IMG/VR virus record: IMGVR_UViG_3300031977_001241
Coordinates: 1-39,462 of that record
Source of the DNA: a virus
Strand: one strand, 5' to 3'
DNA length: 39,462 bases
Shown here: positions 1-24,027 of the stretch, piece by piece
Position numbering within the stretch: the first letter of the stretch is position 1
Layout of the letters: each line of letters starts with the position of its first letter
Translations under genes and position numbers: made by a program
The notes under the pieces: generated by a model
What the model was told of the DNA's origin: nothing
Database searches by the model: none
The model's input: only the letters and a program-made list of their open reading frames with translations

Positions 1-460
1 CTCTTACAAAGTCTATTGCGTTTTTGTAATATTCAGGTCTATGAATCTCACGACCACCGTTACCATCACCACCTAGAATATCAGTTCCTCGAAAATGAAT
101 ACCTACTGTGATAACATCATCTCTAAGTTTCTTTTTGTATTGATCCGAGATTTGTAAAAAATCTCTAGGATCTTGTTTTGTGACTCTCCAGAAAACATTA
201 TGAATTGCATACTCATCTACTTCATAATCTATATCTTTGCGAAAACTCATCGTAGGATTAGTAAGAATCTCTCTCCAAGATAGTTTAGTCTCTGGATTCT
301 CTGGTGACTTATGAGTTATGGTATTGGTGAAAAAACGTTGATCCTCCCACACGTTACATGAAACATCTTGCTTCTTCGATGCACCTAATTGAGCGAGAGT
401 ATTGTAGTGTAAAATTTTATTACCCATGCGACCACGGGTGATTTCATTTATTCTCAACAT
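1..460 (-). CDS. GT11-like (fucosyltransferase-type) glycosyltransferase, 3' part beyond window
   Basis: This reading frame is open to the left window edge, so only about 153 N-terminal residues are visible. I translated it by hand from ATG 460-458. It has two hallmarks of the GT11/O-fucosyltransferase superfamily: an N-terminal glycine/asparagine motif (RGRMGNKILHYNTLAQLG, compare GxGNQxFQYA) and the GDP-sugar-binding HxRxxD-type motif (IHFRGTD). The start overlaps the end of the upstream gene by 17 nt, so it belongs to the same glycan operon. GT11 enzymes usually transfer fucose from GDP-fucose. The true donor and acceptor are unknown, and the missing C-terminus prevents a domain check. Confidence 0.65.
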   Translation of the reverse strand, partial: MLRINEITRGRMGNKILHYNTLAQLGASKKQDVSCNVWEDQRFFTNTITHKSPENPETKLSWREILTNPTMSFRKDIDYEVDEYAIHNVFWRVTKQDPRDFLQISDQYKKKLRDDVITVGIHFRGTDILGGDGNGGREIHRPEYYKNAIDFVR

Positions 461-7775: not shown

Positions 7776-8346
7776 GCTTGATTCCTTTCGTTCCGTACTT
7801 TCTATCATTCTCTGCTTTGATTGTTGGACACGCATGACCCGCACCATGAATCAATTCATAGAAAGACATAACAGATAAGATTTCATGGGAGTGAAAAAAG
7901 ATGTTATCAAAGCATATTTCGTTTATCGTGTCTCTATCTAATCTTGCTGACTTCACACCAGTAATGATCGTGGTATCAAACCCTTGATCATCAGCCCAAC
8001 GTAAAGCACCCAAGACATTAGCGGAGTTTCCTGAACCAGAGTATCCTAATACTAAGGTTTTTTTGTCTAAGTCAGCGTACGCTTCCAACCATCGCTCAAA
8101 GATATTTTCATAACCATGATCATTTGCAATTGAAGTCAGATGTGACTGACTGTCTAAACAATGCACTTTCTTATTTGTAAGTCGTGTAGCATCAGCAGCA
8201 CCATGACTTGCAACTGCCATGTTACCACCATTACCAATCATGTAGATTACTTCTGCCTCATTGAATTGTTTCTGTAGAGTTTTCCACTCTTCAGTCTCAA
8301 CTGCTTGAGACAACTTTTCTTCAAGTCCTTCAAATACTGTTAACAT
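7768..8346 (-). CDS. SIS-domain sugar-phosphate isomerase (GmhA-like)
   Basis: The protein has 192 residues. It matches sedoheptulose-7-phosphate isomerase/GmhA-like SIS proteins: VIYMIGNGGNMAVASHGAAD (phosphosugar-binding loop), LTSIANDHGYENIFERWL (compare GmhA LTxISNDxGYExVF) and LVLGYSGSGNSANVL (the SIS GxSGxS loop). It would make or bind a phosphorylated ketose or heptose upstream of an activated sugar. Its pairing with a cytidylyltransferase rather than an HddC-type guanylyltransferase is unusual. It is the first gene after a good sigma70-like promoter and has an AAAGGAG ribosome site, so it may head a transcript for the left part of the island. Confidence 0.8.
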   Translation of the reverse strand: MLTVFEGLEEKLSQAVETEEWKTLQKQFNEAEVIYMIGNGGNMAVASHGAADATRLTNKKVHCLDSQSHLTSIANDHGYENIFERWLEAYADLDKKTLVLGYSGSGNSANVLGALRWADDQGFDTTIITGVKSARLDRDTINEICFDNIFFHSHEILSVMSFYELIHGAGHACPTIKAENDRKYGTKGIKHV

Positions 8347-8359
8347 AAAAACTCCTTTC

Positions 8360-8953
8360 TCACATTATAGTAAGGTTTGGTTTTTCTTCAAATGGATAAG
8401 ACGATATTATGTAAAAATTCTTTTCTGGGTAAGAATCAAACATATGATTTAGATATTCGTATGTTCTCTCTAGATTGTGTCCGCTAATCTCTGTAAGTCT
8501 ACCCTGTGAATCGTATGTACCGTTGTCCCAGAGCCACTTGAGTGCGGGATCAAACTCTTCATTTTTGAAGTAATACATCTTTTCCATGTGCTGAAACAAA
8601 TCAAATCCTACAAGTGCGATGCTATCAACACTATCGTCGTGAACAAATAAATCAAAGGCTAGAATACCAGTCGATGGATCTAAGTCCTTATATGAAAAGT
8701 TTTCACGAATCGGAGTTTGACCACCAGTATCGATATGCTCACGAACACCGTATCTACTTATTTGCTCTTGAGTATATGGGGTGGATGTCCTATTTGAGAA
8801 GTCATAGTGTAAACGTGATCCTACTAGATGCTCGTAACCATCTATGAGGGGTCTACCACAACCTACAACGACATTAAACTTATCTATAAACTCCCTAGTG
8901 CAGCGACTTACGCTAGGGCCTTTTCCAAGTATTGCAACTGATTTCTTAGACAT
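8360..8953 (-). CDS. Sialyltransferase-like protein (GT29/GT42-like pattern)
   Basis: The protein has 197 residues. It begins with SVAILGKGPSVSRC and a following FNVVVGCGRPL, similar to the CMP-sialic-acid-binding start of sialyltransferases (GNGPS...). It also has PSTGILAFDLFV and IALVGFDLF, comparable to the GT29/GT42 'SSG..A...A...GF' segments. The start overlaps the GT17 gene by 46 nt, but a GAGGT ribosome site 9 nt upstream supports it. A CMP-sugar synthetase two genes downstream makes a CMP-sugar-using transferase plausible. The similarity is only pattern level, so the call is tentative. Confidence 0.45.
   Translation of the reverse strand: MSKKSVAILGKGPSVSRCTREFIDKFNVVVGCGRPLIDGYEHLVGSRLHYDFSNRTSTPYTQEQISRYGVREHIDTGGQTPIRENFSYKDLDPSTGILAFDLFVHDDSVDSIALVGFDLFQHMEKMYYFKNEEFDPALKWLWDNGTYDSQGRLTEISGHNLERTYEYLNHMFDSYPEKNFYIISSYPFEEKPNLTIM
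8364..8391 (-). promoter_or_regulatory. Sigma70-like promoter of the SIS/CMP-sugar operon
   Basis: On the minus strand TTGAAG (8391-8386), a 16-nt spacer and TATAAT (8369-8364) precede the SIS gene by about 18 nt. The sequence after the -10 (GTGAGAAAGGAG) includes the ribosome site. The -35 overlaps the end of the upstream gene. Confidence 0.65.
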
Positions 8954-9711
8954 TCAGGTATTACCTCATCATTATTATCAAGTTCACGAATTCTAAAGTC
9001 AACGTCAGGGTCAAACGGATACTCTTTGTTTGCAATCGCCTCTTCTAGAAGTTCTTTGTTTGCACAGAATCTATATCTCGGATGACTATAAGTATGTAGT
9101 TTGTAAACCATCTCCTCTGGAGTCATACACCAAGAAAAATGACAACCATGCTTACCAGGCAGTATAGGTCCAACGTCTCTCCAATTCGTAGGGTATTGAT
9201 CTTGGAACACCCAATATTTACTTGCGATGGGAGATGTAAAATCCTTACCCTCCCACAAATAATTTGTTTTATAGAAAAACTGATGTAGATTCAACCTGAC
9301 TAAATTCTGTCTACTGACAGTCTCTAAAATTTGTGGATACGCATCACGATAAATTATTTCATCAGCGTCAATTGAAATAATAATATCATCTCGGTCAAAC
9401 TCCATGTCAGTCATAAAAGAACTACGCATCACGGGTTCGTTGATTGAGTGGATAAGATCTTCTCTCTCGTATGCTTCAACAGCCTTATCACTCAAATCAG
9501 AAGGAAGGTAGATTACCTTATCCATAAATTCAGCAGGGAGTTGATCCTTTACTTCATCCCAAATGTAGTCTCTGGGTCTACCCGTATGAGTTCTATTATG
9601 TTCGCATATTATAAAACCATCAATATGATCATATGCCTCTAACAAATTCATAGCGAGGAACTTTACTTCATGCTCTACATAAAAGTATGTCTTCAAATAA
9701 ACTTTGCTCAT
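8908..9711 (-). CDS. GT17-like (beta-1,4-GlcNAc transferase type) glycosyltransferase
   Basis: The protein has 267 residues from ATG 9711. It resembles glycosyltransferase family 17: KVYLKTYFYVEHEVKFLAMN, DGFIICEHNRTHTGRPRDY (family-like 'vivEsn.THtG') and a DxD-type site IIISIDADEI. GT17 includes eukaryotic MGAT3 and many bacterial and phage members. The ATG overlaps the upstream stop as ATGA, which is why I prefer it to the in-frame start four codons earlier. Donor specificity in phage members is unknown. Confidence 0.75.
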   Translation of the reverse strand: MSKVYLKTYFYVEHEVKFLAMNLLEAYDHIDGFIICEHNRTHTGRPRDYIWDEVKDQLPAEFMDKVIYLPSDLSDKAVEAYEREDLIHSINEPVMRSSFMTDMEFDRDDIIISIDADEIIYRDAYPQILETVSRQNLVRLNLHQFFYKTNYLWEGKDFTSPIASKYWVFQDQYPTNWRDVGPILPGKHGCHFSWCMTPEEMVYKLHTYSHPRYRFCANKELLEEAIANKEYPFDPDVDFRIRELDNNDEVIPECLRNQLQYLEKALA

Positions 9712-10421
9712 ACTAGTCTCCATACATTGTAGTCTTCATCATTTGCGTCAGCAACTTTGCACCAGAAGACATCATTTTTAGATTTACGATAGTTAATCCA
9801 ATCTTTCGAGTGAATGATTGTTTTTTTGATACCTGTCATCCCTGCTACAATATTAAATGTAGATGGACTGGATATCATATGATCACAACGTGACATTTCT
9901 ATGAAGTCATTCTTGAACTTACTTCTGTCTGATGTGTTTTCGCCAAACTTGTAATCTTTACGATTGAATTCAAGACACTCGATAATCTCTGCGATTCTCC
10001 AAGAGTTTGGATCGTCGGTAAAAATATAGAATGTGTCAACACGATCCAATAATTCTACGATAGAGTTTTGGTAATATCCAACACGCTGACCAATATCGAC
10101 AGATTCAGGCATCCATGCATGAAAGTCGGTTTCACGAATATGAATTGAACAGGTTCTTTCGTATCTTTGAATATCAGACATTTTAAAAACGTCTCTGGTG
10201 CTTATGGTTTTGAATTCAAAGTATTCTGTTCCTAAGCAAAAAGGTAAGGCGTATTGATCTGTAGGTGTTTCCTTGTGAATTTCAAGATCAAAAACATCAC
10301 AGCCTTCCCACTCAGGACAACTAAATCCTACACCTAATTGATGAGCAAGTTGTCTCATGTTATTATAGTAAAGTGCCTTATTACCAAATCCGCACTCTGG
10401 AAACTCTGGGATTACGATCAT
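9708..10421 (-). CDS. GT11-like (fucosyltransferase-type) glycosyltransferase
   Basis: The protein has 237 residues from ATG 10421. It carries the GT11-type N-terminal motif (CGFGNKALYYNNMRQLA), a central HxRxxD motif in SIHIRETDFHAW and a C-terminal MISSPSTFNIVAGMTG resembling the family's 'SxSTFSWWAA' segment. The start is an ATGA junction with an AGGGTGG ribosome site. The usual reaction is fucose transfer from GDP-fucose, but no GDP-fucose synthesis gene is visible here, so the sugar would have to come from the host or from genes outside the window. Confidence 0.65.
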   Translation of the reverse strand: MIVIPEFPECGFGNKALYYNNMRQLAHQLGVGFSCPEWEGCDVFDLEIHKETPTDQYALPFCLGTEYFEFKTISTRDVFKMSDIQRYERTCSIHIRETDFHAWMPESVDIGQRVGYYQNSIVELLDRVDTFYIFTDDPNSWRIAEIIECLEFNRKDYKFGENTSDRSKFKNDFIEMSRCDHMISSPSTFNIVAGMTGIKKTIIHSKDWINYRKSKNDVFWCKVADANDEDYNVWRLV

Positions 10422-11104
10422 TGAGTGATCCACCCTAACTTAGAATAATGCTCGTAAAGTTTTTCTCTGTCTGGATTGTGGTGAGGAAGTTTCCATGATG
10501 CATGTTCATCAGATCCTAGCATGGGATTTGTGTCTCCCCAAACTTCGGGTTGATCGTGTGGTTGAGACGGAACGTAAGAGAATATGTCTCCGAAGATTTG
10601 TGCTGATGCACACAACTGTATATCCTCCCCAGTTGAAAAGGAAACTGTGGGTTCTTTCCACATGTAATGAATCCACTCCGTTTTGAAGAACCAACAGTGT
10701 CCCACGATGTCTGCTTTGACTGGGACTGGATTAGCAATACCATCGCAAATACCAACAGACCCTTTGTTACTACGATTACGACCGTTTGCACCACAAATGC
10801 AGTTTAGTTTTTTAGATGTGTTAACACAATGCTCCAACCATTTTGGTGCGGGGATTGTGTCATCATCAAAGATCGCTGTATATTCAGATGTAAATAAAAG
10901 AGGAAGAGTAAACCTACCGTGGTATTTACTATTCGTTGAGGACTGAACATGGTCCCACGATCCGTCTTGGTATTGACTTAGATCAATATGGTTTTCATTT
11001 TGATAAACAACGATTCTATCGATATCAGCAGTTTGCTTTTTAATCGCCTCCAACTGCTCTACGAAATTGTCACGTTTCCACACCGTCAGAACAACTGTAA
11101 TCAT
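10418..11104 (-). CDS. GT2-family glycosyltransferase
   Basis: The protein has 228 residues. It has a canonical GT2 start (MITVVLTVWKRDNFVEQLEA), IDRIVVYQN, and a metal site in YTAIFDDDTIPAPKWLEH (DDD, then the typical P..WLE). A TGEDIQLCASAQIFG helix fits the acceptor-side ED motif. An ATGA junction links it to both neighbours. It is predicted to be a soluble cytoplasmic enzyme with unknown donor and acceptor. Confidence 0.75.
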   Translation of the reverse strand: MITVVLTVWKRDNFVEQLEAIKKQTADIDRIVVYQNENHIDLSQYQDGSWDHVQSSTNSKYHGRFTLPLLFTSEYTAIFDDDTIPAPKWLEHCVNTSKKLNCICGANGRNRSNKGSVGICDGIANPVPVKADIVGHCWFFKTEWIHYMWKEPTVSFSTGEDIQLCASAQIFGDIFSYVPSQPHDQPEVWGDTNPMLGSDEHASWKLPHHNPDREKLYEHYSKLGWITQ

Positions 11105-11892
11105 ATTGACTCCACGATTCTTTTTGTTGTATCGTATGAGCCTTTACGAGAACAGTTTCGCTCATACCAATCTCTACCATTTTTCGACATCTCATTCCAC
11201 TGTGTAGAACTGACGTTGTTTACTATCGCTGCAACTTCATCGGGTGATGACGCATAGAAATAATGAACACCCTCTTCTAGTTTGTCATGGTATTCTAGTC
11301 CACAACCTTTTGTATAGATCGGCACTGTTCCCAGACCAAAATATTCTATTTCACGATTACACTTCGGACCATACCCAGGCAGAACAAGTCCGTAACGTGA
11401 GCGTGATACCTTGTTAAGATATTCGTCTTGTGTGTATGGATACTCGTACACGTTACCGATAGCAACAGGCATACTAAACTCTTCTATGCAAGTTGACCAG
11501 TCGTGAGTCATCCTGTTTTCATATTGTATAGGGTTTTCGATCTTACCGAGAAATATAGATTTTGTGTCTCTGTCATCGAAACTCTTAATACCCTCTTTGA
11601 TTTTAGATTCTAGTTTTCTAGGATGTCTTGACCAAAATATCCAAGGATGATTTTTTCCGATTGGAACGTTCCACGCTTGAGTGTTTGAGAACAAACCCTT
11701 GTTCCAAGTTTTGGGTAAGAAATCAAACCTTGCATACTCATACAACAAGACATCACCAACACCATCACCAGTCCAACAGAATCTGTCGTGACTATCTTCG
11801 ATCACTATGTAATTTGATTCATCCCACATTTCGATGAGTTCACGAAACGTGTCTCCCTTTGCGTGATTTCTCATAGTCACAAACAACTTCAT
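11101..11892 (-). CDS. Exostosin/GT47-like glycosyltransferase
   Basis: The protein has 263 residues from ATG 11892, which has a GGAGTG ribosome site and lies just after the upstream stop. The C-terminal half has a GT-B pattern: SRSRYGLVLPGYGPKCNREI followed by EYFGLGTVPIY. This corresponds to the exostosin-type segment 'S.F.l.p.G....r..Eal..G.iPV', with the conserved glutamate that binds the sugar nucleotide. No membrane anchor is present. The donor is unknown. Confidence 0.6.
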   Translation of the reverse strand: MKLFVTMRNHAKGDTFRELIEMWDESNYIVIEDSHDRFCWTGDGVGDVLLYEYARFDFLPKTWNKGLFSNTQAWNVPIGKNHPWIFWSRHPRKLESKIKEGIKSFDDRDTKSIFLGKIENPIQYENRMTHDWSTCIEEFSMPVAIGNVYEYPYTQDEYLNKVSRSRYGLVLPGYGPKCNREIEYFGLGTVPIYTKGCGLEYHDKLEEGVHYFYASSPDEVAAIVNNVSSTQWNEMSKNGRDWYERNCSRKGSYDTTKRIVESI

Positions 11893-11893
11893 T

Positions 11894-12772
11894 TTACACT
11901 CCATAAAAATCTTTTAAAACTTTATCATCAAGAGTTTCTTTGACTAGTCTCGCTGCATCACAATCCAACTCTAAAAACTTATTCAGCACCTCTCCTCTTG
12001 CATCACATGGTTGTCCTGCCCAGTCCGCTAGAGAACTTTCTTTTACTATAGAAAGAACTTTACGTTTTATCAAGTCTTTCTCTTCGTTTTTAAACAAAGA
12101 GTATGGTATGACTGAGTGTGGAAACGGTGCTTTTCTTTTCTGGTTATCGATAGGACAGTCTAGGAAGTTTGTCTCTAAAAACAAAGGAGACTGTTGTTGT
12201 ATAAATGTATGACTCAACATAAACTGATCTTGAGCCCAAGGCATATCCATTCTAGATTCATAATACTCTTTGAATGATTTAGGTTTGTGTTCAATCTTAC
12301 TAGGTTTAAACCCACAAAGACCTCCGAGGATATCACAACCCATTTCATGATAATGGTTTTCATGAGATCGCAGAGTCTGTATAGCAAACTTACTCTTTGC
12401 AAAATACGTCGTGGACACATACTCTTGATAATTTGGTATAGAATCAATGTCTCTCAAAAACACGCAGTCGTAGTTACCATCCCATATGGGAATCAGTCTC
12501 CACATCATCGGTTCAGATGTATTCGTAAATTTTAGATCTACTTCCTCGATAGTGATATCAAGTTTTTCTAATAATTTAAAAAGTGGATTGTAAGTTAGAC
12601 TATTATTGATGAATATTTTCATCTCGTAGTCTGGATATAATACTTTGTTGGTGATATACAACGCTGGTATGTTAAACCAATATCTTGTTTTATCTAAGTT
12701 ATGCTCGTCCCATGTTCTGTGAACATGAATATTGAACGGGTCGAAGAGACAGTATGATAAAACAGTTTTCAT
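11894..12772 (-). CDS. Putative glycosyltransferase with a DxD-type motif
   Basis: The protein has 292 residues. It contains a GT-A-like centre, DCVFLRDIDSIPN (RDIDS as the DxD site), followed by LGGLCGFKP, and the order of elements resembles capsular/GT32- or GT8-like transferases. The N-terminus (KTVLSYCLFDPFN) lacks the classical GT2 start. The gene starts with an ATGA overlap and ends 1 nt before the next start. Family assignment is uncertain; membership in the glycan operon is clear from the layout. Confidence 0.55.
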   Translation of the reverse strand: MKTVLSYCLFDPFNIHVHRTWDEHNLDKTRYWFNIPALYITNKVLYPDYEMKIFINNSLTYNPLFKLLEKLDITIEEVDLKFTNTSEPMMWRLIPIWDGNYDCVFLRDIDSIPNYQEYVSTTYFAKSKFAIQTLRSHENHYHEMGCDILGGLCGFKPSKIEHKPKSFKEYYESRMDMPWAQDQFMLSHTFIQQQSPLFLETNFLDCPIDNQKRKAPFPHSVIPYSLFKNEEKDLIKRKVLSIVKESSLADWAGQPCDARGEVLNKFLELDCDAARLVKETLDDKVLKDFYGV

Positions 12773-13443
12773 AAGTTAAAGTTCAGTGCTTTATTTCTGT
12801 GGAATATACTTCCATCTTTTTCGTACATTTGTGCGTTTTCATTTCTTGCGTGCAATTCATCAAAAGGCTGAGGTGTCCAATCATGTTTAGCAATACAGGT
12901 TTGACTAACCACTAATTTGTTAAGTAGCATCAAAACGTGTGTTTGTTCGGTGTCACAATATACAGAAGTATACTCTGGATTATAAATGTATCCAAACTTC
13001 TCATAAAAGTTCCATCCGATGATTGGTAGAGTCATAAGAGCATCATTACGAAGCCCGTCATGATACTTTATACCACCATCATAATTCGGTAGATGCTCTG
13101 CGAAGTCTGACATGATGATGTCATCATAGTTGTCTTGTTGTAGAACCATGTCATCGGATATGAGTAAGATTACGTCAGCCTTCTCTCCCTCAAGATCAGC
13201 GTTACATGCTTCGACCTTAGTTTTAGATTTTCCGTAATGATACACTAGGTCAATACCTTTGTCACGCAACGACTCAAGGTAACTTTTGATCTCATCGTTG
13301 TTCATTGTTTCATCGTCTAGATCCATCGAAATGACAAATCTCACCTCATGTTTACCTGAGGTTCGTGATGTATAATTATCTAAAATGTCCCTGAACTTCT
13401 CTGGTCTGTTGCGAGAAGGGAACTTCACAAGCAATTTTGACAT
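12769..13443 (-). CDS. Glycosyltransferase-like protein, first gene after regA
   Basis: The protein has 224 residues from ATG 13443, which lies 1 nt after the regA stop. The pattern is GT-A-like: LLVKFPSRNRPEKFRDIL, VRFVISMDLDD, then VILLISDDMVLQQDNYDD as the probable DxD-region acidic site. Such proteins occur in marine T4-like phages next to other sugar genes. It opens the island that replaces the gene 43 (DNA polymerase) position of T4. Catalytic function is inferred only. Confidence 0.55.
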   Translation of the reverse strand: MSKLLVKFPSRNRPEKFRDILDNYTSRTSGKHEVRFVISMDLDDETMNNDEIKSYLESLRDKGIDLVYHYGKSKTKVEACNADLEGEKADVILLISDDMVLQQDNYDDIIMSDFAEHLPNYDGGIKYHDGLRNDALMTLPIIGWNFYEKFGYIYNPEYTSVYCDTEQTHVLMLLNKLVVSQTCIAKHDWTPQPFDELHARNENAQMYEKDGSIFHRNKALNFNL

Positions 13444-13444
13444 A

Positions 13445-13852
13445 CTATTTCTTTCTGTTACCAATGTGATACTTTGGTATCAACTCCCAATCATCTTTAT
13501 CCTTAAATGGTAAAATTTTCATTTTACCTAAACTCACTTGTGGTTCTTCTACTTTATCTTCGTCCACAATATCAAGTAGACCCCACTCCTCCAGTAAACA
13601 GGCGATTGTGTTTCTTCGTCCTACATCTGTATTACTTATGTCAGACTCTAATCCATCCATCTCAAAAAGTTCTTTGAAATGCATGATCGCATATCTACCT
13701 TGTTTGTGCAAAATATGACACGATTGATATAAAATGTTTTCTTTTTTTGATGATACGCCGATTCTCGTAAGAGTCTCTTTCACTTTTAAAAAATCATCAT
13801 CTGTTTTAAGACGTATCTCAACACCCAATCCTTTAAATAAATTGTCGCTCAT
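13445..13852 (-). CDS. regA: RegA translational repressor
   Basis: The protein has 135 residues (T4 RegA has 122). It aligns strongly by eye with T4 RegA: FLKVKETLTRIGVSSKKENI, LYQSCHILHKQGRYAIMHFK, ELFEMDG, LEEWGLLDIV and a C-terminal LIPKYHIGN. RegA binds the start regions of phage mRNAs and represses translation of early replication genes, including the clamp and clamp-loader genes and its own. The gene follows gp62 as in T4, with a 39-nt gap holding a -10-like element and an AAGGA ribosome site. It has an extra N-terminal stretch and an acidic insert around residues 97-107. Confidence 0.95.
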   Translation of the reverse strand: MSDNLFKGLGVEIRLKTDDDFLKVKETLTRIGVSSKKENILYQSCHILHKQGRYAIMHFKELFEMDGLESDISNTDVGRRNTIACLLEEWGLLDIVDEDKVEEPQVSLGKMKILPFKDKDDWELIPKYHIGNRKK

Positions 13853-13891: not shown

Positions 13892-14269
13892 TTAGCCTCC
13901 TTCATTCATCTCTTGCTTCATATTTTCAATATCTTCATTACTCAAAACCCGTAAAGCCTCTTCAGCCTTACGGTTAGAGTAATTATAATACCGCTTTACA
14001 ACCTCAATATCATCGGGTTTCTCGTTCTTCAACCACTTACTAAACCGTTTTCTAGGTCTGATAGATAGTCTAAGATAATCATACTGAACACGTTCACTTA
14101 ACGAATGATTTACGTTCATTTCATTTGCATGAAATAACGTGTCGGGAAAGTAAGACAGACATCGATTTACGACAAAAGCAGGATATTGTTTGGATGCATG
14201 TTCAGCGTCCTCTGCAAAGATATCCTCTTTTGTGTAGTTGATTGAGTTTAGAAAATCACCTAGTTTCAT
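13892..14269 (-). CDS. gp62: Clamp loader small subunit gp62
   Basis: The protein has 125 residues, shorter than T4 gp62 (187) but similar to the compact gp62 of marine T4-like phages. Recognisable features are KLGDFLNSINYTKEDIF at the start, FVVNRCLSYFPDTLFHANEM in the middle and the basic RLSIRPRKRFSKWLK. With four gp44 subunits it forms the ATPase that loads gp45 on DNA. The start is a TAATG junction with the GroES-like gene. Synteny (gp45, gp44, inserted gene, gp62, regA) supports the call strongly. Confidence 0.9.
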   Translation of the reverse strand: MKLGDFLNSINYTKEDIFAEDAEHASKQYPAFVVNRCLSYFPDTLFHANEMNVNHSLSERVQYDYLRLSIRPRKRFSKWLKNEKPDDIEVVKRYYNYSNRKAEEALRVLSNEDIENMKQEMNEGG

Positions 14270-14568
14270 TAGTCCTCCACTACCGCGATTACAGCCTCTC
14301 TTCGAATAACATCATACTCTTTTGAGATACCGATTCGATTGCGTGCATCATAAATGATGGTGCTACCGATCTTATACTCTACGGGTGGAACATCTCCGTT
14401 TGGAAGGGGAAGACCACTACCCATACTAAGAATCTTAGTCTCTACGAAACTGCTGTCGAGCATCTGGTTTCTCTTGATGATAATACCAGCATCGGTGGTT
14501 TGCTCTTCGTTATAATCCACCTTCTCTACGAAAATATAATCCGCTTGTGCTTTTGGAATGTTACTCAT
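14269..14568 (-). CDS. GroES/gp31-like co-chaperonin
   Basis: The protein has 99 residues, the size of a GroES subunit. It has the GroES order of elements: an N-terminal strand ADYIFVEKVDYNEEQTTDAG (compare DRVIVKR...TAGGI) with the short mobile-loop region ending in GIIIKR, then ETKILSMGSGLPLPNGDVPP (compare 'GeVlAVGnGr...nG...p'), then VEYKIGSTIIYD and a C-terminal REAVIAVVED. T4 gp31 replaces GroES to let host GroEL fold gp23, and this protein is a candidate for that role. It sits between gp44 and gp62 with ATGA and TAATG overlaps, an unusual site. Confidence 0.8.
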   Translation of the reverse strand: MSNIPKAQADYIFVEKVDYNEEQTTDAGIIIKRNQMLDSSFVETKILSMGSGLPLPNGDVPPVEYKIGSTIIYDARNRIGISKEYDVIRREAVIAVVED

Positions 14569-15509
14569 TTGAATTGTGCCTCCATCATAATTTGAACTAA
14601 ACATGCTGTCATATTTATCTCTGCATCAGCAACGAACGCTGCTTTGTGTTGATAATCTGCAAGGATAAGTATAACAATAGGAATACTCTCTGGTGCAAGA
14701 TAATCATAAAGTGAGTCATAAATTTTTCTGAACAGTTCCGACTGATCGTTGTCAAGATTCGATACGACCCACTTACGAACACCGCTGAAATCTTTTTCTT
14801 TCATGCGGGTCATCAGATCTTTCACATCGATCTCACCGATCTGTGATAAGATACCGACATCAATTTTTCCTGAGACAGAGTAGCGTTGAAGTTCGTTCAC
14901 CACTCGTCTGAAGTCTGGAAAGTATTTAAGAATTAGATGTGCAAGAACTCGTTCTTCATACTCGACACCCTCAGTATCCAGAATGAACTTCACCCTATCC
15001 AAGAACTTCGCTGCTAACTTTGGTTTCTCCTTCGTTGGAATCTGAAACTCAACGTTTGTGCAACGAGAGTGAATCGGTTTAATAATTCTGTTTTTGTAAT
15101 TGCAAGTTAGTATAAAACGACAATTATCAGCAAATTCCTCAATCGCTCCTCTGAGAGCAGGCTGAATACTCTGTGCGTTAGAATAATCAAATTCATCTAG
15201 AATACAAACTTTCTTGTTACCATCCAGAGAAACGGAACTAGCGAAATCACGAATGGTGGTTCGAAGCGTATCGATGTTCCCGTTCTCTGAACAGTTGATA
15301 AGAATGTGATCACAACCCAACTCGTTGCACATAGCCTTTGCGATTGTAGTTTTACCGCAACCAGCACCACCACTGAGTAACAAGTTTTGTGATTCACCCG
15401 AAACAATCATATCTTTGAATGTATCTTTGATGTTCTCAGGGAGAATACATTCATCAACAGTTTGGGGTCGATACTTCTCTACCCACAAATAAGTTTCTTG
15501 ATTAGTCAT
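14565..15509 (-). CDS. gp44: Clamp loader large subunit gp44 (AAA+ ATPase)
   Basis: The protein has 314 residues from ATG 15509; a TTG nine codons earlier is less likely because it lies deeper inside gp45. It has the RFC/gp44 signatures: LWVEKYRPQTVDEC, Walker A LLSGGAGCGKTTIA, Walker B VCILDEFDYSN and the SRC motif IHSRCTNVEF carrying the arginine finger. It hydrolyses ATP to open and load the gp45 ring. It overlaps gp45 by 8 nt and the GroES-like gene by ATGA. Confidence 0.95.
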   Translation of the reverse strand: MTNQETYLWVEKYRPQTVDECILPENIKDTFKDMIVSGESQNLLLSGGAGCGKTTIAKAMCNELGCDHILINCSENGNIDTLRTTIRDFASSVSLDGNKKVCILDEFDYSNAQSIQPALRGAIEEFADNCRFILTCNYKNRIIKPIHSRCTNVEFQIPTKEKPKLAAKFLDRVKFILDTEGVEYEERVLAHLILKYFPDFRRVVNELQRYSVSGKIDVGILSQIGEIDVKDLMTRMKEKDFSGVRKWVVSNLDNDQSELFRKIYDSLYDYLAPESIPIVILILADYQHKAAFVADAEINMTACLVQIMMEAQFK

Positions 15510-16188
15510 GATATGATGAGTCGCTTTCCTGTGCAATATAATACTTAGTGTCCTGCTCCGTATGTGTGAACCGTGTTACAGTTTGAGAGCATACATCCAC
15601 AGTATAATCACCTGACAGAAGTTTCAAGTTTTCATTCTTGAGATAGAAAGAAAAAGTAGAGCCTGGTTTAGGATTAGTCCCGACCTCGACCGTGTAACTG
15701 TTTGTGGTGGGAGTCTTCTTATCAAGTGCGACGAGTTCAATTGTTCCTTCGTCACTCGACTTGATACAAAGGTCTGGAAGTTGAAGAACAGATGCAGACC
15801 TTTGAACTGATTCGAACACACTCTCCGTGAGTTTGAAACTAATCACTGGTTCAGGCATCTTGACCTCACGAGTGAGGGTGGTGAGAAGTCTTGGTTCTGA
15901 ATAGTAGTAAGAAACTTTACCACCACCTCTTCCAGAAATGATCATGGATTTTTCACCAAACTCAAATTCTGGATCTTCGAACAAACTAATTGTTCCTAGA
16001 AGTTTACTTAAGTCCCAGATACCAAACTCTACCTCGAAGTTTTCAGTAACGACAGATTCCGAAACAATATTCTTTGCAGGAGAAATCGTATTGATCACGT
16101 TACCTTCTTTGACCAACAGATTAGAGTTGATCTGAGAATAGTTTTTGAGAATAGCGAGTGTTTCTTTGGACAGTTTTGTTTTACTCAT
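15502..16188 (-). CDS. gp45: Sliding clamp gp45
   Basis: The protein has 228 residues (T4 gp45 has 228). Typical features are the start KLSKETLAILKNYSQINSNL, repeated clamp-fold strands, and the C-terminal strand LLSGDYTVDVCSQTVTRFTH. The trimeric ring tethers the DNA polymerase, and in T4 it also activates late transcription together with gp55 and gp33. It begins at a TAATG junction with the small basic gene upstream and is followed directly by gp44, the conserved T4 order. Confidence 0.93.
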   Translation of the reverse strand: MSKTKLSKETLAILKNYSQINSNLLVKEGNVINTISPAKNIVSESVVTENFEVEFGIWDLSKLLGTISLFEDPEFEFGEKSMIISGRGGGKVSYYYSEPRLLTTLTREVKMPEPVISFKLTESVFESVQRSASVLQLPDLCIKSSDEGTIELVALDKKTPTTNSYTVEVGTNPKPGSTFSFYLKNENLKLLSGDYTVDVCSQTVTRFTHTEQDTKYYIAQESDSSYHD

Positions 16189-16359: not shown

Positions 16360-17229
16360 TTAAAAATCTCCTATGCTGGACATCAAGTTTTTCAACTTGT
16401 TTTTAATAAAGTAGTCTAGGAGTTTGGAACGATCATTAACAATCATGTCCTTCTCAAACTCCTCTAAAATCAATGATTCATATTCATCTGGAATCTTAGT
16501 CATATCAATCATCGTTTGGTTTCTTTCGAAGTTAACTTTCCACGCATCATTATACGGATCATCGATTACTTCTTCAACTCTTTTTTTGCTACAAGGCTTT
16601 TGTCTTTTACCATCGATCATAAAAGTATCATCATCTGAGAGAACATTTGGAATACCATCTGACGAGTCGCCTTTGATAATGTGTTCCATCAAAAAACGTT
16701 GAGGGTCATCACAAACTAGAAATTGTTTCTTCATCAAACTATACTGTTCGACGTTGTTATATCTTTGGAGTTGTTGGAAGTCTTTATCGTTTGAAACGAT
16801 GAGAATCTTTTCGCTCGTATGATATTTGCGTGATAGGACTGCAATAATATCATCTGCCTCAACTCTATCGACAGAGAGACATTTGTAGGGAAAAGTTTCT
16901 CTAACCTCATTTCGAATGATATTCATGACACCAAAGACATCAGACCAATCGATTGCAGATTTATCTTGATTCTTTTTGCGATTCGCCTTGTAGTATTCAA
17001 AGCAATCTTTTCTCCAGCAGTTTGAGGTATCATCACAAATTACTAGATCACCATAAGTGTCACCAAACTTAGTCTTAACCATGCGGTATGTGTTTAGCAC
17101 AAGGTGACGTATAAAGTTCTCATCAATTTTTTGCTCTTGTTTTGCTACAGAAAAAATGTTTGCGATGAGAACTTGACTATTATCAAGAAGAATAATTTTG
17201 TTGCCTCTTTCAGAAAGTATCACCACCAT
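16360..17229 (-). CDS. rnh: RNase H / 5'-3' flap exonuclease
   Basis: The protein has 289 residues from ATG 17229 (T4 RNase H has 305). It has the FEN-1/5'-nuclease pattern with acidic metal-binding clusters: IILLDNSQVLIA, LVICDDTSNCWRKDCFEYYK, VEADDIIAVLS, ILIVSNDKDFQQL and IKGDSSDGIPNV. The enzyme removes RNA primers and adjacent DNA on the lagging strand. The start aligns with T4 RNase H, and longer in-frame starts would run far into the upstream gene. It overlaps that gene by 20 nt and has no clear ribosome site, so coupled translation is likely. Confidence 0.92.
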   Translation of the reverse strand: MVVILSERGNKIILLDNSQVLIANIFSVAKQEQKIDENFIRHLVLNTYRMVKTKFGDTYGDLVICDDTSNCWRKDCFEYYKANRKKNQDKSAIDWSDVFGVMNIIRNEVRETFPYKCLSVDRVEADDIIAVLSRKYHTSEKILIVSNDKDFQQLQRYNNVEQYSLMKKQFLVCDDPQRFLMEHIIKGDSSDGIPNVLSDDDTFMIDGKRQKPCSKKRVEEVIDDPYNDAWKVNFERNQTMIDMTKIPDEYESLILEEFEKDMIVNDRSKLLDYFIKNKLKNLMSSIGDF

Positions 17230-17734
17230 CGATGGTTTTATTTGGGTTGTCAACAGGTTTCCATTTATTGTTTGGATGAGTAGATTCAGGCACATATCCT
17301 GAAACTCTACCTGTTGCGATGTAACTATTACCCTCATAGTATACCACATCACCAAGTGAATAGATAGTATATTGTCCAGATTCGTCAAACATTTTAAAAT
17401 CTCCAACAACGTTGAAGCGATCTCTGTTATTTACCTCTTGAGTAAATCTTCTTCTGCCTCTTCTATCCCTTCTTAATACTGATCTATTTCTGTATAACGA
17501 AGTTCTATTAGACTGCACTCTCTGTCTCTGATGTAATTGACTCATCAGATTATAAATCTGAATCGCCTCAAATTTATTGAATCCTTCTGGTATGATGTAG
17601 TTTTCAATAAATTGTTTCGCAGTTGCAGAATCTCTAACAGCGCCTACTTGTACCGCAACCATTTTGGAGTAAGCAGACTGCCATCCACCACCACCCCAAG
17701 CGTAAGTTAAAAGTTGTGATATGTCGTAAACCAT
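17210..17734 (-). CDS. Unknown protein with arginine-rich linker and CBM5/12-like C-terminus
   Basis: The protein has 174 residues. The N-terminal 70 or so residues are not recognised (MVYDISQLLTYAWGGGGWQ). Residues of roughly 70-100 are very arginine-rich (NRSVLRRDRRGRRRF). The C-terminal part (YSLGDVVYYEGNSYIATG, then NNKWKPVD) resembles carbohydrate-binding modules of the CBM5/12 type ('GdxVxYxGxxYxA...P....W'). Such modules are common on phage tail proteins. Its place among replication genes argues against a simple virion role. The start is a TAATG junction. Function unknown. Confidence 0.6.
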   Translation of the reverse strand: MVYDISQLLTYAWGGGGWQSAYSKMVAVQVGAVRDSATAKQFIENYIIPEGFNKFEAIQIYNLMSQLHQRQRVQSNRTSLYRNRSVLRRDRRGRRRFTQEVNNRDRFNVVGDFKMFDESGQYTIYSLGDVVYYEGNSYIATGRVSGYVPESTHPNNKWKPVDNPNKTIDGGDTF

Positions 17735-18075
17735 TACTTTTTCTTCTTATCGTTCGTAAGTTTATAAACTCTATAAATCTCATCAATATGTATGTGAGCA
17801 TGATCTCTCATGTGCATACGATCTTCTCTCTCACGGTTAGACATGTACCAAAACTTCTTATCTACAATAAATTCGTCGATAACATCTTTCTTCCAACGTA
17901 GTTGAATTCTAAGATCTGTTCCTTTTAAGAAGGATGACCATTTATCATGATCTCCTGCTGTTTTGTAAACTTTAACAACGAAGTTGGAGTCGAGACTTTC
18001 TAACGACTGTGTTAGATAAGTCTCATATGACTCCGACTTCATATTCTTATACTTAAGCGGTAGTAACTTCGGCAT
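17734..18075 (-). CDS. Conserved-type hypothetical protein
   Basis: The protein has 113 residues if started at ATG 18075, inside the 3' end of glutamine synthetase; ATG 18042 (102 residues) is also possible. An AGAGG lies close before the first start. It is mostly charged with a DEFIVDKKFWYMSNREREDR segment and a lysine run at the C-terminus. There is no signal peptide, membrane segment or recognisable domain. The stop overlaps the next start as TAATG. Tight coupling suggests a real gene; no function is proposed. Confidence 0.65.
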   Translation of the reverse strand: MPKLLPLKYKNMKSESYETYLTQSLESLDSNFVVKVYKTAGDHDKWSSFLKGTDLRIQLRWKKDVIDEFIVDKKFWYMSNREREDRMHMRDHAHIHIDEIYRVYKLTNDKKKK

Positions 18076-19147
18076 TTTCCTCTACCTTAATGGTGTTCAG
18101 AATTGCAGCGTAAGCAAGATATGGGTCCATATTTGCTGCTGGTCTACGATCTTCCAAGTAACCTGCACCGTCATTTTTCACTGTGACGGGTGGAATACGA
18201 ATTGATGCAGACCTATCACTGACTCCATATGAGAAGTCTTCAATGGAAGATGTTTCATGCTTTCCTGTCAATCTACGTTCATTACCCACACCATAATCAC
18301 TGCTTGACATGAGTTCACCATGACCGTCTGCTAATTTTTCGCAGATCGTGTTCATGAGATCCATATCACCAGATCTCATAGAATGTGTTGAAAAGTTAAT
18401 GTGCGCCCCCGATCCGTTCCAATCTCCTTCGACAGGCTTAGGATCATAGTTGATACCGATCCCTCGACTCTCTGCAACACGCTGTAAGATATAACGTGAT
18501 ATCCAAAGACTGTCAGCAGCATCAATCGCATCCATTGGACCTAATTGATATTCCCATTGAGACTTCATTACCTCAGCATTGTTTCCTTCGTAAAAAAGAC
18601 CAATTTGTGAACACGCTTGAGCATGTTGCTCTACCACGAAACGTAATGGAGTTAAGTCACCACCAACACCGCAATAATAATCTCCTTGAGGTGCTGGATA
18701 TTCACCATGCTCACCCCACTCAGCAGGCCAGTTTTCTTTTGGATTCCATAAGACATATTCCTGCTCAACTGAGAAAATTGTCTTATCAGATTCTTTGTTA
18801 TTCGAAAAAGCGTCTCGTAAAATTGCACGATTGTTTGTTGCGTGAGGGTTACCATCCATATCATAAACTTCACACAATACAATGAATGATGGAATGGGTG
18901 ACTGAGGAGGAACGAATGGATTCTTAAAAACCTTCACAGGTTTCAGAGAAAGATCGCTATTTTCAGTCACCGCTTGATTGGTGCTTGATCCATCATAAGA
19001 CCACTCAGGTGCATGTTCAATGATGTTATCGATAGTCGGTGGAATCTGCGGATTTTCTGAGGGAATATTTACGTTCCGAGTTTTGGAGCGAATACCCACT
19101 GGTTCACAACCGTCCAACCAAACATACTCTAATTTTACTTGTCTCAT
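18053..19147 (-). CDS. glnII: Glutamine synthetase type II (eukaryote-type GSII)
   Basis: The protein has 364 residues, the usual GSII length and well short of bacterial GSI (about 470) or GSIII (about 700). All diagnostic blocks are present: EWSYDGSSTNQA (48-59), the metal-binding EQEYVLW (129-135), PAPQGDYYCGVGG (151-163), AEVMKSQWEYQLGP (191-204), GDWNGSGAHINFST (241-254), GNERRLTGKHE (288-298) and GYLEDRRPAANMDPY (329-343). The enzyme makes glutamine from glutamate, ammonia and ATP. The start is ATG 19147 in an ATGA overlap with the methyltransferase, after AGAAAGG. The frame is intact and all visible catalytic residues are kept, so activity is likely. Confidence 0.95.
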   Translation of the reverse strand: MRQVKLEYVWLDGCEPVGIRSKTRNVNIPSENPQIPPTIDNIIEHAPEWSYDGSSTNQAVTENSDLSLKPVKVFKNPFVPPQSPIPSFIVLCEVYDMDGNPHATNNRAILRDAFSNNKESDKTIFSVEQEYVLWNPKENWPAEWGEHGEYPAPQGDYYCGVGGDLTPLRFVVEQHAQACSQIGLFYEGNNAEVMKSQWEYQLGPMDAIDAADSLWISRYILQRVAESRGIGINYDPKPVEGDWNGSGAHINFSTHSMRSGDMDLMNTICEKLADGHGELMSSSDYGVGNERRLTGKHETSSIEDFSYGVSDRSASIRIPPVTVKNDGAGYLEDRRPAANMDPYLAYAAILNTIKVEENAEVTTA

Positions 19148-20730
19148 AAACAACCTTTCTTAAAAACGAGAACTGGTTCATATTTTACATACGTTCCATT
19201 TATTTTGCAATAGTTTTTACACTTAGGTTTTCCATTTTCGTCCAACCTATTTTGACCAGGCATTCCTTCGAGTGCCATCTTCAAAGTATATTTATACTCG
19301 ACACCCATAGATTCAAGTATATCAATACTATCTTTTTCTAAAGGCAGATATTTTTCTCCAACCTTAACATCAGCGATGTTCCACAATAAGTAACGGTTAG
19401 GCTTTAACCAAGTCACCGCTGTTTCTAAGGTCGGACGAAGAAAACCATCTCTCCACGATTCATATGATGAACCAAACTTTTTGTAACTTTGGTTTTCGTT
19501 TTCGCTGTATGCTTCACGATTAAAGTAGGGTGGGGATGTAAAAATAAGATCTATATCACCTTTATGTTTCTGAAACCCCAAATCGTGTTGGATTACCTCT
19601 GACCCCAAACAATAGATTTCATAAGTGTTAACAGGTCCGCAAAAAAATGTGTTTCCTCTATTGGTTTTGGTGTTGTAGAACTCAGCGATATCGGAGTATC
19701 TGTTGGTGCTGTCTGGAGAAAAGTTATCAACGTTAGGGTCAGTGCCGATGTAATGAATACTTCTGTCATCACGAACGGACATCGCTCCAAGAATCCTACC
19801 TCCCCAACCAGCGGACGGGTCATAAATTTTAATAACGTCCTGATCTTTGATATCATCTGTAAACCTTTCATATAGATACTTCGCTGTCATGGGTGGGAAG
19901 TTAACTGCTGGTTGAATATAACCAATACGAAACGCTGCAAATCCTTTTGGAAACACTCTGTTTCCCTCTTTGTATATGCGAACGTTATACACCTTATCAT
20001 CAGGCATATTATCTATATCAAATGTAGAGTAATGACGATACTCTAATCTTCCATTTCTTTGTAATTCTAAAACTTGATCTTTCGTTAAAGAAAGTGTGTT
20101 TGACTGGTCTACTTGATTATACCCAGTATTCATCCCTTCTTTGATTGCAACCTGTTCTAGAAAAAAGTTGTAACCATTGAAGATGATGCTCTGGTTATCG
20201 TAGAAAGTATTGACGAATGTGATACCGTCATCAACTGAGACTAACGCTGGTTTCACATTATTTTTGAAACAGGTGAGAGCGTGTAGATACATGGAGTCTC
20301 TGCGAAAGTGTCTCATGCATCCCTTAAACATTTTCTCCTCAAATCTATCCAACGCAAAAAGATCATAGATTGAATAACCATTATCTCTTTCTGTGTAATT
20401 GATTCTAGTTTTATACATGTTCGCAAACCACTGATCTGCCTCTGCACCTAATCTACTTTTATTGACAATGACATCATCAGGGATGTCAGACAATTCGTCA
20501 GAGTGTGTGAACTCGTGTATGGGATATGAGATCATTTTATTAAACTGATCTATGATTTCATCTTCAGTTTTTCCTTGTCTCGGTGGGACGTTTTGCTCAT
20601 CCCAAATATCAATCACAAGTTTTCTCATCTTTGAAACCCAAGATCGAAACTCATCTGGAGTCATGCACAGTAAGTCCTCGAACTTACAGTTAATATCAGA
20701 GTCTATGAGACTAGTGTTTTTCTCATACAT
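19144..20730 (-). CDS. DNA methyltransferase (TSPPY type, N4-C or N6-A)
   Basis: The protein has 528 residues. The SAM-binding motif DPSAGWGGR is at residues 304-312 and the catalytic TSPPYF at 398-403, followed by YRYLLWNIADVKVG-like strands. This is the order and sequence of amino-methyltransferases acting on exocyclic N4 of cytosine or N6 of adenine. The N-terminal 280 residues are not recognised and are larger than in simple phage orphan enzymes, so they may hold target recognition or another function. It starts with TAATG at the gp46 stop and ends with ATGA into GSII. No restriction enzyme is adjacent, so protection of phage DNA is the likeliest role. Confidence 0.8.
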   Translation of the reverse strand: MYEKNTSLIDSDINCKFEDLLCMTPDEFRSWVSKMRKLVIDIWDEQNVPPRQGKTEDEIIDQFNKMISYPIHEFTHSDELSDIPDDVIVNKSRLGAEADQWFANMYKTRINYTERDNGYSIYDLFALDRFEEKMFKGCMRHFRRDSMYLHALTCFKNNVKPALVSVDDGITFVNTFYDNQSIIFNGYNFFLEQVAIKEGMNTGYNQVDQSNTLSLTKDQVLELQRNGRLEYRHYSTFDIDNMPDDKVYNVRIYKEGNRVFPKGFAAFRIGYIQPAVNFPPMTAKYLYERFTDDIKDQDVIKIYDPSAGWGGRILGAMSVRDDRSIHYIGTDPNVDNFSPDSTNRYSDIAEFYNTKTNRGNTFFCGPVNTYEIYCLGSEVIQHDLGFQKHKGDIDLIFTSPPYFNREAYSENENQSYKKFGSSYESWRDGFLRPTLETAVTWLKPNRYLLWNIADVKVGEKYLPLEKDSIDILESMGVEYKYTLKMALEGMPGQNRLDENGKPKCKNYCKINGTYVKYEPVLVFKKGCL

Positions 20731-22445
20731 TACTTGATCCTACTAAAGTTGTTCTTTTTCATAAACACAAAGTGGTTGTGGAACTTATCAGCAAGATGAT
20801 CCGTCTTGTGACTAATCACAAAGATATTTGAATTACCGCTAGTGAATGTCTTAAGTAGTTTCATAAACTCTTCGGTTCCCGCTGCATCGAGACTTGAATC
20901 AAAAACCTCATCGAGAATCAACAAGTTACAACTTACGCTGTTTTTCAGTTTAGCAACTTCTCTCCATGCAAACAGAAGAGCAAGATCAATACGAAGTCTT
21001 TCACCCTCACTTAGATTGTAGTATGAGAAGTCATCACGGTATCTGCTTTTGATTTCTTCATTAAAGTTTTCATCGAGTGTAAACTTGCAAAAGAAGTCCA
21101 TCGCCTTCAAATACTTATTGATTAAATTATTCATGACAGGGAGATACTGTTTAATAATTCTTGCTTTGATGCCTGTATCTTTTAGCAGACTTTGAATAAT
21201 CTCAAGATGATTTTCATCAACAATAAATCTTTCTTTTTCTTTTGTTTGTTCCATGCCCTCATGAATCAACTTCTTCATTTCTACAATATCATCATCAAGT
21301 GTGTTCTCTTGACTCTGGTTTTGCTGTTTTCTCTTGAGCATCCCATCGATGTATGTTTGACAAGAATCTATCTTCGCCTGTTCGTATTGTTTCTCACCCA
21401 AGATTTGATTGATCGTTTGTTGTATTTCATCCTGATCATCTAGCCTCTTTTTTGTTTCGTCCATCTTCACTATCAACTTTTGTAGATTGTCTTCGTGTTC
21501 AGACTGTTTTGTTTTTTGGTTTGTAACAATCTGACACTTATGATCAACGCCTATATCTTGTCGGCACACTGGACATTGATCGTTCTGTGAAAAGAAGTCC
21601 ATATCCTTTTTGATATCGGAGAGTTTAGAGTTTATCTCTCGTCTTTCGAGTGACAGGTCGGACAAACTATTTTTATTTACGTCATGATCAACCAACTCAC
21701 CAATCAGATCTAGGTGCTTGTCCTCTAGATCTTTTATCCTATTTTTTGCGTCCTCTATTTCTTGTTTCTTTTGATCAATCTCGTCATCGATACTATCGAG
21801 ATTACTTTTTGCTTGGTCTTTGATCTTATCAATATATTCTTTTTTAGTTTCGATCTTTGTCTTTAGCATATCGATACTATTTTCTTTGTCCTTAATAATC
21901 TCACGAACAGCAGAAACCTTACCCTTCACCATGATGTTCATGATGGTAAATATATTAATATCCAACAAGTTTTCAACGATGTCTCTTCTATCTGTCGCAG
22001 ACAACTGCATGAAGGGAACATAGTTTGATGATCCCAAAACAACAATCTGACAGAAGGACTTGTAAGACATTTTAAGAATCTGTTCCTCTAGGATTCTCTG
22101 ATAGTCTTTTGCTTTAGCCTCTTGTGGTAGCAACTCTCCGTCAACATAGATGTCGAACACTTTTGGTTTCTGTCCTCGACGAACAAGATATGACTTAGGA
22201 CCAATAGAAAATTCTATCTCAACCACAGAGTCCTTTTCATTAATACTATTCACAAGTGTAGAAACGGTGATACCACGAAATGATTTACCAAACAAAGAGT
22301 ATGTCAATGCATCCAGAATCGTAGACTTACCAGCACCGTTCTCTCCCGTTATAAGGGTAAGACCGTGACGACACAAATCAACTTCTGTGAATGCATTTCC
22401 CGTTGAAAGAAAGTTCTTCCATCGAATCTTTGTAAATTTAATCAT
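20730..22445 (-). CDS. gp46: Recombination endonuclease subunit gp46 (Rad50/SbcC-like)
   Basis: The protein has 571 residues (T4 gp46 has 560). It shows Walker A GENGAGKST (34-42), a long coiled coil broken by the zinc-hook CPVC at 291-294, the ABC signature LSEGERLRIDLALLF, Walker B LLILDEVFDSSLD and the H-loop VISHK. With gp47 it resects DNA ends for recombination-dependent replication. The ATG overlaps the preceding stop as ATGA. Confidence 0.96.
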   Translation of the reverse strand: MIKFTKIRWKNFLSTGNAFTEVDLCRHGLTLITGENGAGKSTILDALTYSLFGKSFRGITVSTLVNSINEKDSVVEIEFSIGPKSYLVRRGQKPKVFDIYVDGELLPQEAKAKDYQRILEEQILKMSYKSFCQIVVLGSSNYVPFMQLSATDRRDIVENLLDINIFTIMNIMVKGKVSAVREIIKDKENSIDMLKTKIETKKEYIDKIKDQAKSNLDSIDDEIDQKKQEIEDAKNRIKDLEDKHLDLIGELVDHDVNKNSLSDLSLERREINSKLSDIKKDMDFFSQNDQCPVCRQDIGVDHKCQIVTNQKTKQSEHEDNLQKLIVKMDETKKRLDDQDEIQQTINQILGEKQYEQAKIDSCQTYIDGMLKRKQQNQSQENTLDDDIVEMKKLIHEGMEQTKEKERFIVDENHLEIIQSLLKDTGIKARIIKQYLPVMNNLINKYLKAMDFFCKFTLDENFNEEIKSRYRDDFSYYNLSEGERLRIDLALLFAWREVAKLKNSVSCNLLILDEVFDSSLDAAGTEEFMKLLKTFTSGNSNIFVISHKTDHLADKFHNHFVFMKKNNFSRIK

Positions 22446-22999
22446 ACTGTAACGCTAACTCCGTTCCACCAATGTGGAGTGGTTGTTTTCCATTTTGCAA
22501 AATACGCTTTCTCTCCATGATAATAATTACGATACGCTTGAACCGCATCACCCACAACCTTATATTGTTCAGGCATCGCTTGAGCAAACTCTGTCTGATG
22601 AATAGACAAAAGGTTATCGGGGTATGTATCAAGGAAGTACCGACACATAGATTCGCATGAATGTTTTTTCTCATAGCGTGTTGTGTATTCTTCGGTCAAC
22701 GCAACAGCGTGTCTCGCTAACCATCGGTAGTTTTCTTTTGATTGCATAATCCACTGTGTGCAGGGATGACCAACAAACGATGCTTTCCACAGTAGACCTT
22801 CTCTTGGTTCTTCTAGTCTCCATCGTTTTATACGACGAGGTTTTGCACCCTTCGACAAGTCTGTATATTCCTGCCCATCAAGAACACGATGTGCAGATGA
22901 CAACATCTGACATGACTCCACAATCATCTTAACGACATGCTTATCACATGAGTATTCCGCAGCCTTGATTGGATCATTATCTAAAACAAAAATGTTCAC
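22442..22999 (-). CDS. Conserved phage protein of the 'MNIFVLDxDP' family
   Basis: The protein has 185 residues and starts at GTG 22999 in a GTGA junction with gp47. Marine phages often carry this family; its marks here are NIFVLDNDPIKAAEYSCDKH, VVKMIVESCQML, GHPCTQWIMQSKENYRWL and a C-terminal YFAKWKTTTPHWW. It is sometimes annotated as a pyrimidine-dimer glycosylase, but I see no likeness to T4 DenV and do not assign that activity. Conserved His/Cys/Asp residues near the start suggest an enzyme. It lies between gp47 and gp46, so a DNA-related role is possible. Confidence 0.75.
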   Translation of the reverse strand: MNIFVLDNDPIKAAEYSCDKHVVKMIVESCQMLSSAHRVLDGQEYTDLSKGAKPRRIKRWRLEEPREGLLWKASFVGHPCTQWIMQSKENYRWLARHAVALTEEYTTRYEKKHSCESMCRYFLDTYPDNLLSIHQTEFAQAMPEQYKVVGDAVQAYRNYYHGEKAYFAKWKTTTPHWWNGVSVTV

Positions 23000-24027
23000 A
23001 GTGTTAAACTCTCCATATACAAATCACGAATCATTTTCTTGATTTTCTCTTTGTCGCCTTCGCACTTGAGAGAATCAACTTCATCTTGAATTAGTGTCAG
23101 TGTATCTTTTTTCATATCGATGTCAACCTTTTCTTGTTCAAGATCCTCTTCTTCGACAATCGTAAGGTTTGCGACTTGGGCGGTATACAGCCCTTCTAAG
23201 AACTTATCAAACTTAACTGGATCTTTCTTGCTCGATACAAATACCTTAACATATCGGTTTTCGTAACTAGAATAGAAAGACTCGCTGTAGGCTTTATCGT
23301 CCTCATACTTTAGTTTATGAAACATTCGACTTGGATTTTCGATGTATTCAAGTTCTCTTGTTTCTGTGTCTAGAACGTGAAAGCCTTTTGGTTCACCGTG
23401 ATCCGAGAATGTTATCTCGTAGTGAGTTCCAAGATAGTGTATATTGTCTCGACTTTGTTTACAGTGAAAGTGACCACTCAACACTTTCTCAAAACGCTTG
23501 AATAGTTGTGGGGACATTCCGCCTCTATGCTTTACGCCTCTTAAAACCTCATATCCGTCCAACTCCAAATGACCAACTAGTATCGGAGCATCCACTGTTT
23601 TGATGTAGTCTGTAAACTCCTCTGCGTTTTCTTTATTTACCCACGGTAACATGGCGATTCGTAACCCGTCAAACTCCAGTGTTTTAGGCTTCTCGTATAT
23701 GTTAAAGTCCTCGTAGAATAACTCACGCATCGAATTGATTCGGTTTGTATTTCTATAATACACATCATGATTACCTAAGATACAATGCAAATCAATGTTG
23801 CGATTTTTTAGAGGCTTTATAAAATGTTCTCGGACATGATTAAGAACGTTGAAGTTTACAAACTTTCGACGATCCATAAGATCACCAGCATGAAGAACTG
23901 TGGTGATGTTGTTCGCATCTAAGTAAGGGAAAAATGTATCGTTGAAAAACTCAGTAAAATAGTCAAGGAATAACTGAGAGTCTCCTCTCGCTCCCCAATG
24001 CGTGTCACTCAGTAGTGCTATTTTCAT
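22996..24027 (-). CDS. gp47: Recombination endonuclease subunit gp47 (Mre11/SbcD-like)
   Basis: The protein has 343 residues (T4 gp47 has 339). The calcineurin-like phosphoesterase motifs are complete: LLSDTHWGARGD (DxH), LHAGDLMDRRK (GDxxD), LGNHDVYY (GNHD), VGHLELDG and SGHFHCKQ (GHxH). It is the nuclease partner of gp46. It overlaps gp55 by 23 nt. The C-terminal 60 residues are acidic and helical and probably bind the gp46 coiled-coil base. Confidence 0.96.
   Translation of the reverse strand: MKIALLSDTHWGARGDSQLFLDYFTEFFNDTFFPYLDANNITTVLHAGDLMDRRKFVNFNVLNHVREHFIKPLKNRNIDLHCILGNHDVYYRNTNRINSMRELFYEDFNIYEKPKTLEFDGLRIAMLPWVNKENAEEFTDYIKTVDAPILVGHLELDGYEVLRGVKHRGGMSPQLFKRFEKVLSGHFHCKQSRDNIHYLGTHYEITFSDHGEPKGFHVLDTETRELEYIENPSRMFHKLKYEDDKAYSESFYSSYENRYVKVFVSSKKDPVKFDKFLEGLYTAQVANLTIVEEEDLEQEKVDIDMKKDTLTLIQDEVDSLKCEGDKEKIKKMIRDLYMESLTL

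Follow-up and report, generated by a model that had tools for sequence, protein, structure and literature searches.

An exchangeable type II glutamine synthetase gene in a replication-region slot of a T4-like phage clade

Why would a T4-like phage carry a type II glutamine synthetase (GSII) among its replication genes, and is the gene a working part of the phage? The question arose from an earlier note on one stretch of viral DNA (the window, a virus record of 39,462 bases analyzed at its full length), which had placed a glutamine synthetase (GS) gene of the expected GSII length at 18053-19147, tied by an ATGA overlap into the replication region. The coordinates were right; the strand, unstated there, is the minus strand, on which the frame is open from ATG at 19147 to the stop at 18053. 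The plus strand of the same interval encodes no protein, its frame being full of stops. With 364 aa the product falls in the range of GSII subunits (about 330–370 aa), and the overlap was seen in the sequence, where the same four bases hold the stop of the methyltransferase-like ORF and the start of GS. At its 3' end the gene shares 23 bases with the following ORF (Table 1).

Table 1. Features in and around the GS locus of the window.
Feature	Position	Strand	Basis
gp47 recombination nuclease subunit	22996..24027	-	
gp46 recombination nuclease subunit	20730..22445	-	
Methyltransferase-like protein, 528 aa, DPSAGWGGR and SPPY motifs	19144..20730	-	
ATGA overlap, methyltransferase-like ORF stop/GS start	19144..19147	-	sequence
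Type II glutamine synthetase, 364 aa	18053..19147	-	profiles, residues, model, tree
113-aa ORF without assigned function, directly 3' of GS	17734..18075	-	
174-aa ORF without assigned function (ORF174)	17210..17734	-	
T4 RNase H-like 5'-3' exonuclease	16360..17409	-	
gp45 sliding clamp	15502..16188	-	
gp44 clamp loader	14565..15536	-	
GroES-like co-chaperonin ORF	14269-14604	-	

Profile searches assigned the protein to the type II class (NCBIfam GlnII, 350 bits, E = 1.6e-104; type I profile, 88 bits, 4e-25; type III profile, 57 bits, 1.1e-15). Pfam Gln-synt_C was matched at 75 bits, above its cut-off of 24, and Gln-synt_N at 27.3 bits, under its cut-off of 33.4. The GlnII score (349.7) did not reach the 500-bit cut-off of the equivalog NF041605, which counts against the explanation favored below; because these 500 bits are a naming threshold, the gene was assigned to the GSII class but not to the equivalog, and a sub-threshold score is as expected of a divergent group. 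The best solved chain in PDB by sequence was a plant GSII (E = 3.5e-89), and in a tree with two type I rows as outgroup, a very long branch with support of 100 set off all GSII rows. Alignment to the Salmonella type I GS revealed that the type I adenylylation loop, with its motif NLYDLPP, is absent.

Residues were compared by alignment to maize GS and Salmonella type I GS, at positions that we take, from general knowledge of GS structures, to be catalytic or ligand-binding. Sixteen of these 17 positions (metal, nucleotide, glutamate and ammonium sites) are kept relative to the type I enzyme, and at the sole exception, R355, maize GSII likewise differs (Tyr). Among 122 viral GS, 14 key positions are invariant, with one sequence gapped at the last two. 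Comparison of the window GS with 84%-identical alleles gave dN of ~0.10 and dS of 1.4–1.5; the dN/dS of ~0.07 is approximate because dS is near saturation, and it points to strong purifying selection. The AlphaFold model of the GS (pLDDT 91.4, pTM 0.92) retrieved GSII structures in all 50 of the top PDB matches listed, with TM (query) of 0.80–0.87. The first of these, Streptomyces coelicolor GlnII (PDB 4bax, TM 0.87), resembles the phage protein in fold and active site, whereas its identity is 42% and it belongs to a cellular group apart from the T4-like phages in the tree. The earlier note had proposed a GSII with an intact active site and without type I adenylylation control: profile scores, the tree with its type I outgroup, residues and fold agree on the class, the kept residues and the modeled fold support an intact site, and the missing motif fits the lack of that control, by which a phage copy, as the note proposed, could bypass the nitrogen control of the host. 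The GS is real and, judged from residues and fold, probably active.

The gene lies among phage core genes, which confirms its proposed location in the gp46-to-gp45 replication region. The block around it runs gp47, gp46, methyltransferase-like ORF, GS, two ORFs, RNase H, gp45, gp44, gp62 and regA, and before gp47 the reading order is terminase, sheath, portal, prohead protease, scaffold, major head protein, UvsY, UvsW and gp55. A GroES-like ORF stands between gp44 and gp62, a placement kept in many relatives. Behind regA, genes for glycosyltransferases, methyltransferases and other products are clustered; the minus strand at 444-13464 holds ~17 genes, including glycosyltransferase, methyltransferase and cytidylyltransferase-like genes and others without assigned function, which suggests surface-sugar synthesis or modification. 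The head protein and terminase show 55–58% identity to those of T4-like phages of Pelagibacter, Methylophilales and Synechococcus, which is too distant for a host to be named, and no deposited phage is a near DNA match to the window. In other IMG/VR contigs (L001, L007 and L014) the gene is found again, whole or in part, at 99–100% with the same neighbors, and L002 carries an 84% GS allele. Because other contigs repeat the gene together with its neighbors, the window is not a chimera, and the earlier claim that it is no contaminating contig stands on these independent records.

Close relatives of the window GS were found at 16 IMG/VR loci, and a search with an alignment as query found at least 587 IMG/VR stretches with relatives. 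Cellular relatives in GTDB (Actinomycetota, Bacteroidota, Marinimicrobia, archaea and others) have ~44–47% identity. In the tree, 40 T4-like phage rows lie on one side of a branch from 34 others (bootstrap 100, SH-aLRT 97), and this branch was recovered in 99% of bootstrap trees. Rooting with type I GS was abandoned, the outgroup branch being too long (4.2 changes per column), and since the root of the tree is not known, a strict clade is not claimed for the T4-like GS. Only phage sequences make up the T4-like group, and every cellular, eukaryotic and other phage GSII sampled falls outside it. Some of the other phage GSII lie near Bacteroidota, and eukaryotic GSII are grouped by themselves, close to those of bacteria. 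The label "eukaryote-type" given earlier does no more than name a class and is misleading, as GSII is common among bacteria and archaea and the gene is no nearer to eukaryotes. On this sequence comparison, the window GS appears to belong to a long-separate phage GSII lineage and not to be a recent host capture. Recent and functionally neutral capture from the host would accord with the optional presence of the GS and the exchange of its alleles described below, but given a phage-only group, a best cellular identity of ~47% and a dN/dS near 0.07, we consider this a very remote prospect.

How regularly is the gene found at this place? When relatives were searched from GS, nearly all T4-like loci had the 528-aa methyltransferase adjoining GS. 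The reverse search, from the methyltransferase (a slot survey of the best 80 matches, not a random sample), yielded 53 loci that span gp46/47 to gp44/45, of which 25 have GS and 28 have none, so its presence varies among related phages, as that of a phage auxiliary metabolic gene would. The GS-less slots are empty or contain an NDP-sugar epimerase, a 370-aa family without assigned function, small CBM-like proteins or fiber-like genes (epimerase-like genes were seen, for example, at L205:1822-2820 and L229:7569-8471). Compared with the window, L002 has 94–99.9% nucleotide identity in gp46, the methyltransferase gene, gp45 and gp44, but only 78.7% in GS and 60% in ORF174, and this drop therefore indicates allele exchange. 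ORF174 is strongly divergent between near relatives (59–61% amino acid identity in L002–L004). The GS is an optional, exchangeable cargo of one T4-like clade, and its slot lies behind a conserved methyltransferase gene. GSII is therefore no curiosity: it recurs in this clade, is under selection and is exchanged. The slot between gp46 and gp45, behind the methyltransferase gene, gives a defined place at which to ask what phages gain from glutamine synthesis.

Other arrangements also occur: gene order is reversed in L118, L120, L122 and L126, and GS is located behind regA in L123 and beside ThyX in L115 and L124. Immediately upstream of GS, the four reversed loci have a PLP-dependent enzyme with a weak PALP match (L118:5198-5986; also L120, L122 and L126), which is possibly an ammonia-releasing partner.

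The 528-aa methyltransferase is a core gene of the phage clade and anchors the cargo slot. Known methylases match only the C-terminal half of the protein, its model is poor (pLDDT 61), and the fold search found it only SAM-dependent methyltransferase-like. The full-length protein was not found in deposited phages. Across distant relatives its identity is 58–69%, above that of the neighboring gp46 or gp45.

The DNA-methylase type of this neighbor, together with the sugar-modification genes near GS in the window, would suit a GS-like gamma-glutamyl ligase, which would join glutamate to an amine other than ammonium in making a wall, polyamine or DNA-modification product. The enzyme has nevertheless kept the equivalents of the ammonium-site residues D50, S53, Y179 and E327, and D52 and E298 are invariant among viral GS. 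The two genes also part company: an obligate methyltransferase–GS pair was ruled out by the 28 of 53 spanning loci with the methyltransferase alone, and other phages have GS without the methyltransferase. A ligase of this kind is accordingly unlikely.

We favor, with good though not full confidence, a competent GSII, an exchangeable metabolic gene that would make glutamine during phage DNA replication. As residues and fold predict, the enzyme would make glutamine from glutamate, ammonium and ATP; it would be expressed with the replication genes, may keep the glutamine pool high, and could act while the host GS is down-regulated or insufficient. The glutamine would then feed host enzymes of purine, CTP, amino-sugar and protein synthesis. 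Genes for P-II, asparagine synthase or glutamine amidotransferases were not present in 18 GS-bearing contigs, so any glutamine would be used by host enzymes, although this absence is weak evidence because most contigs are incomplete. Neither a glutamine riboswitch nor tRNAs were found in the window; the lack of a pathway tie, with no riboswitch in the window and no phage glutamine-using enzyme in the 18 contigs, counts against the favored explanation.

Unexpectedly, the GS ORF measures 465–509 aa in 37 loci (~26 distinct contigs), where an N-terminal domain is fused in frame (e.g., L012:5662-7092, L010:5508-6944 and L106:5629-7119, besides about 23 other contigs). The fused domain contains CGWC and a TP motif, and a proline-rich linker joins it to GS. 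Pfam Thioredoxin was matched by 20 of 20 fusion members scanned (best 9.2e-6, weak singly), and PDB thioredoxins match a profile of the domain. The 345–430 base gap before GS in many relatives was considered as a place for a small gene of its own, P-II for example; this was rejected, the gap being the in-frame N-terminal extension of GS itself. Of 80 loci, 51 had the thioredoxin-like domain without GS, and among the 80 fetched, no cellular locus carried it. In the GS tree, 17 of the 40 T4-like rows are fused, which needs at least three changes of state; the window GS and its closest kin have no thioredoxin-like domain. In the open literature searched, outside which most subscription journals lie, no description of a thioredoxin–GSII architecture was found.

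The presence of this domain in some relatives suggests regulation, and a mainly regulatory phage GS, which would titrate host nitrogen regulators or mix with the host GS, was considered. The fully conserved active site, the signs of strong purifying selection and the lack of a P-II gene in the 18 contigs all speak against such a role, which we regard as improbable. Chances are about even, in our judgment, that T4-like phages have a long-separate GSII lineage of their own in which the fusion of ~26 contigs makes a redox-linked GS, the window having the plain form. With the fusions in relatives, one could ask directly whether nitrogen assimilation in the infected cell is under redox control.

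The earlier note knew of no well-described GSII in a tailed phage, but novelty was not supported. The window GS is neither unique nor a first: hundreds of other phage sequences carry such genes, which have been on record since 2007. In the available part of their text, Yooseph et al. (2007; PMC1821046) describe a large viral group in the type II GS tree of Global Ocean Sampling data and count GS among the families to which abundant viral members were newly added. That group, from ocean samples, resembles the window GS as type II GS attributed to viruses, but it is treed with mimivirus and eukaryotes, and the T4-like context, the slot and the fusion are not described in that part. GS was also reported in 9 of 25 genomes of moraphages, which are large aquatic tailed phages (PMC12619734), although these are a separate large-phage lineage and the GS type is not stated in the portion of the paper available. 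Further reports include glnA in jumbo phages (PMC13037316) and a GS gene in Antarctic viruses (PMC10721903). Huge phages of 635–735 kb (LR756502, LR756501 and LR745206) have GSII 44–45% identical to the window GS along its full length, but these lie outside the T4-like group and have no methyltransferase partner. In a second phage group (L130–L169), GSII lies near portal and protease genes, and this layout recurs from contig to contig.
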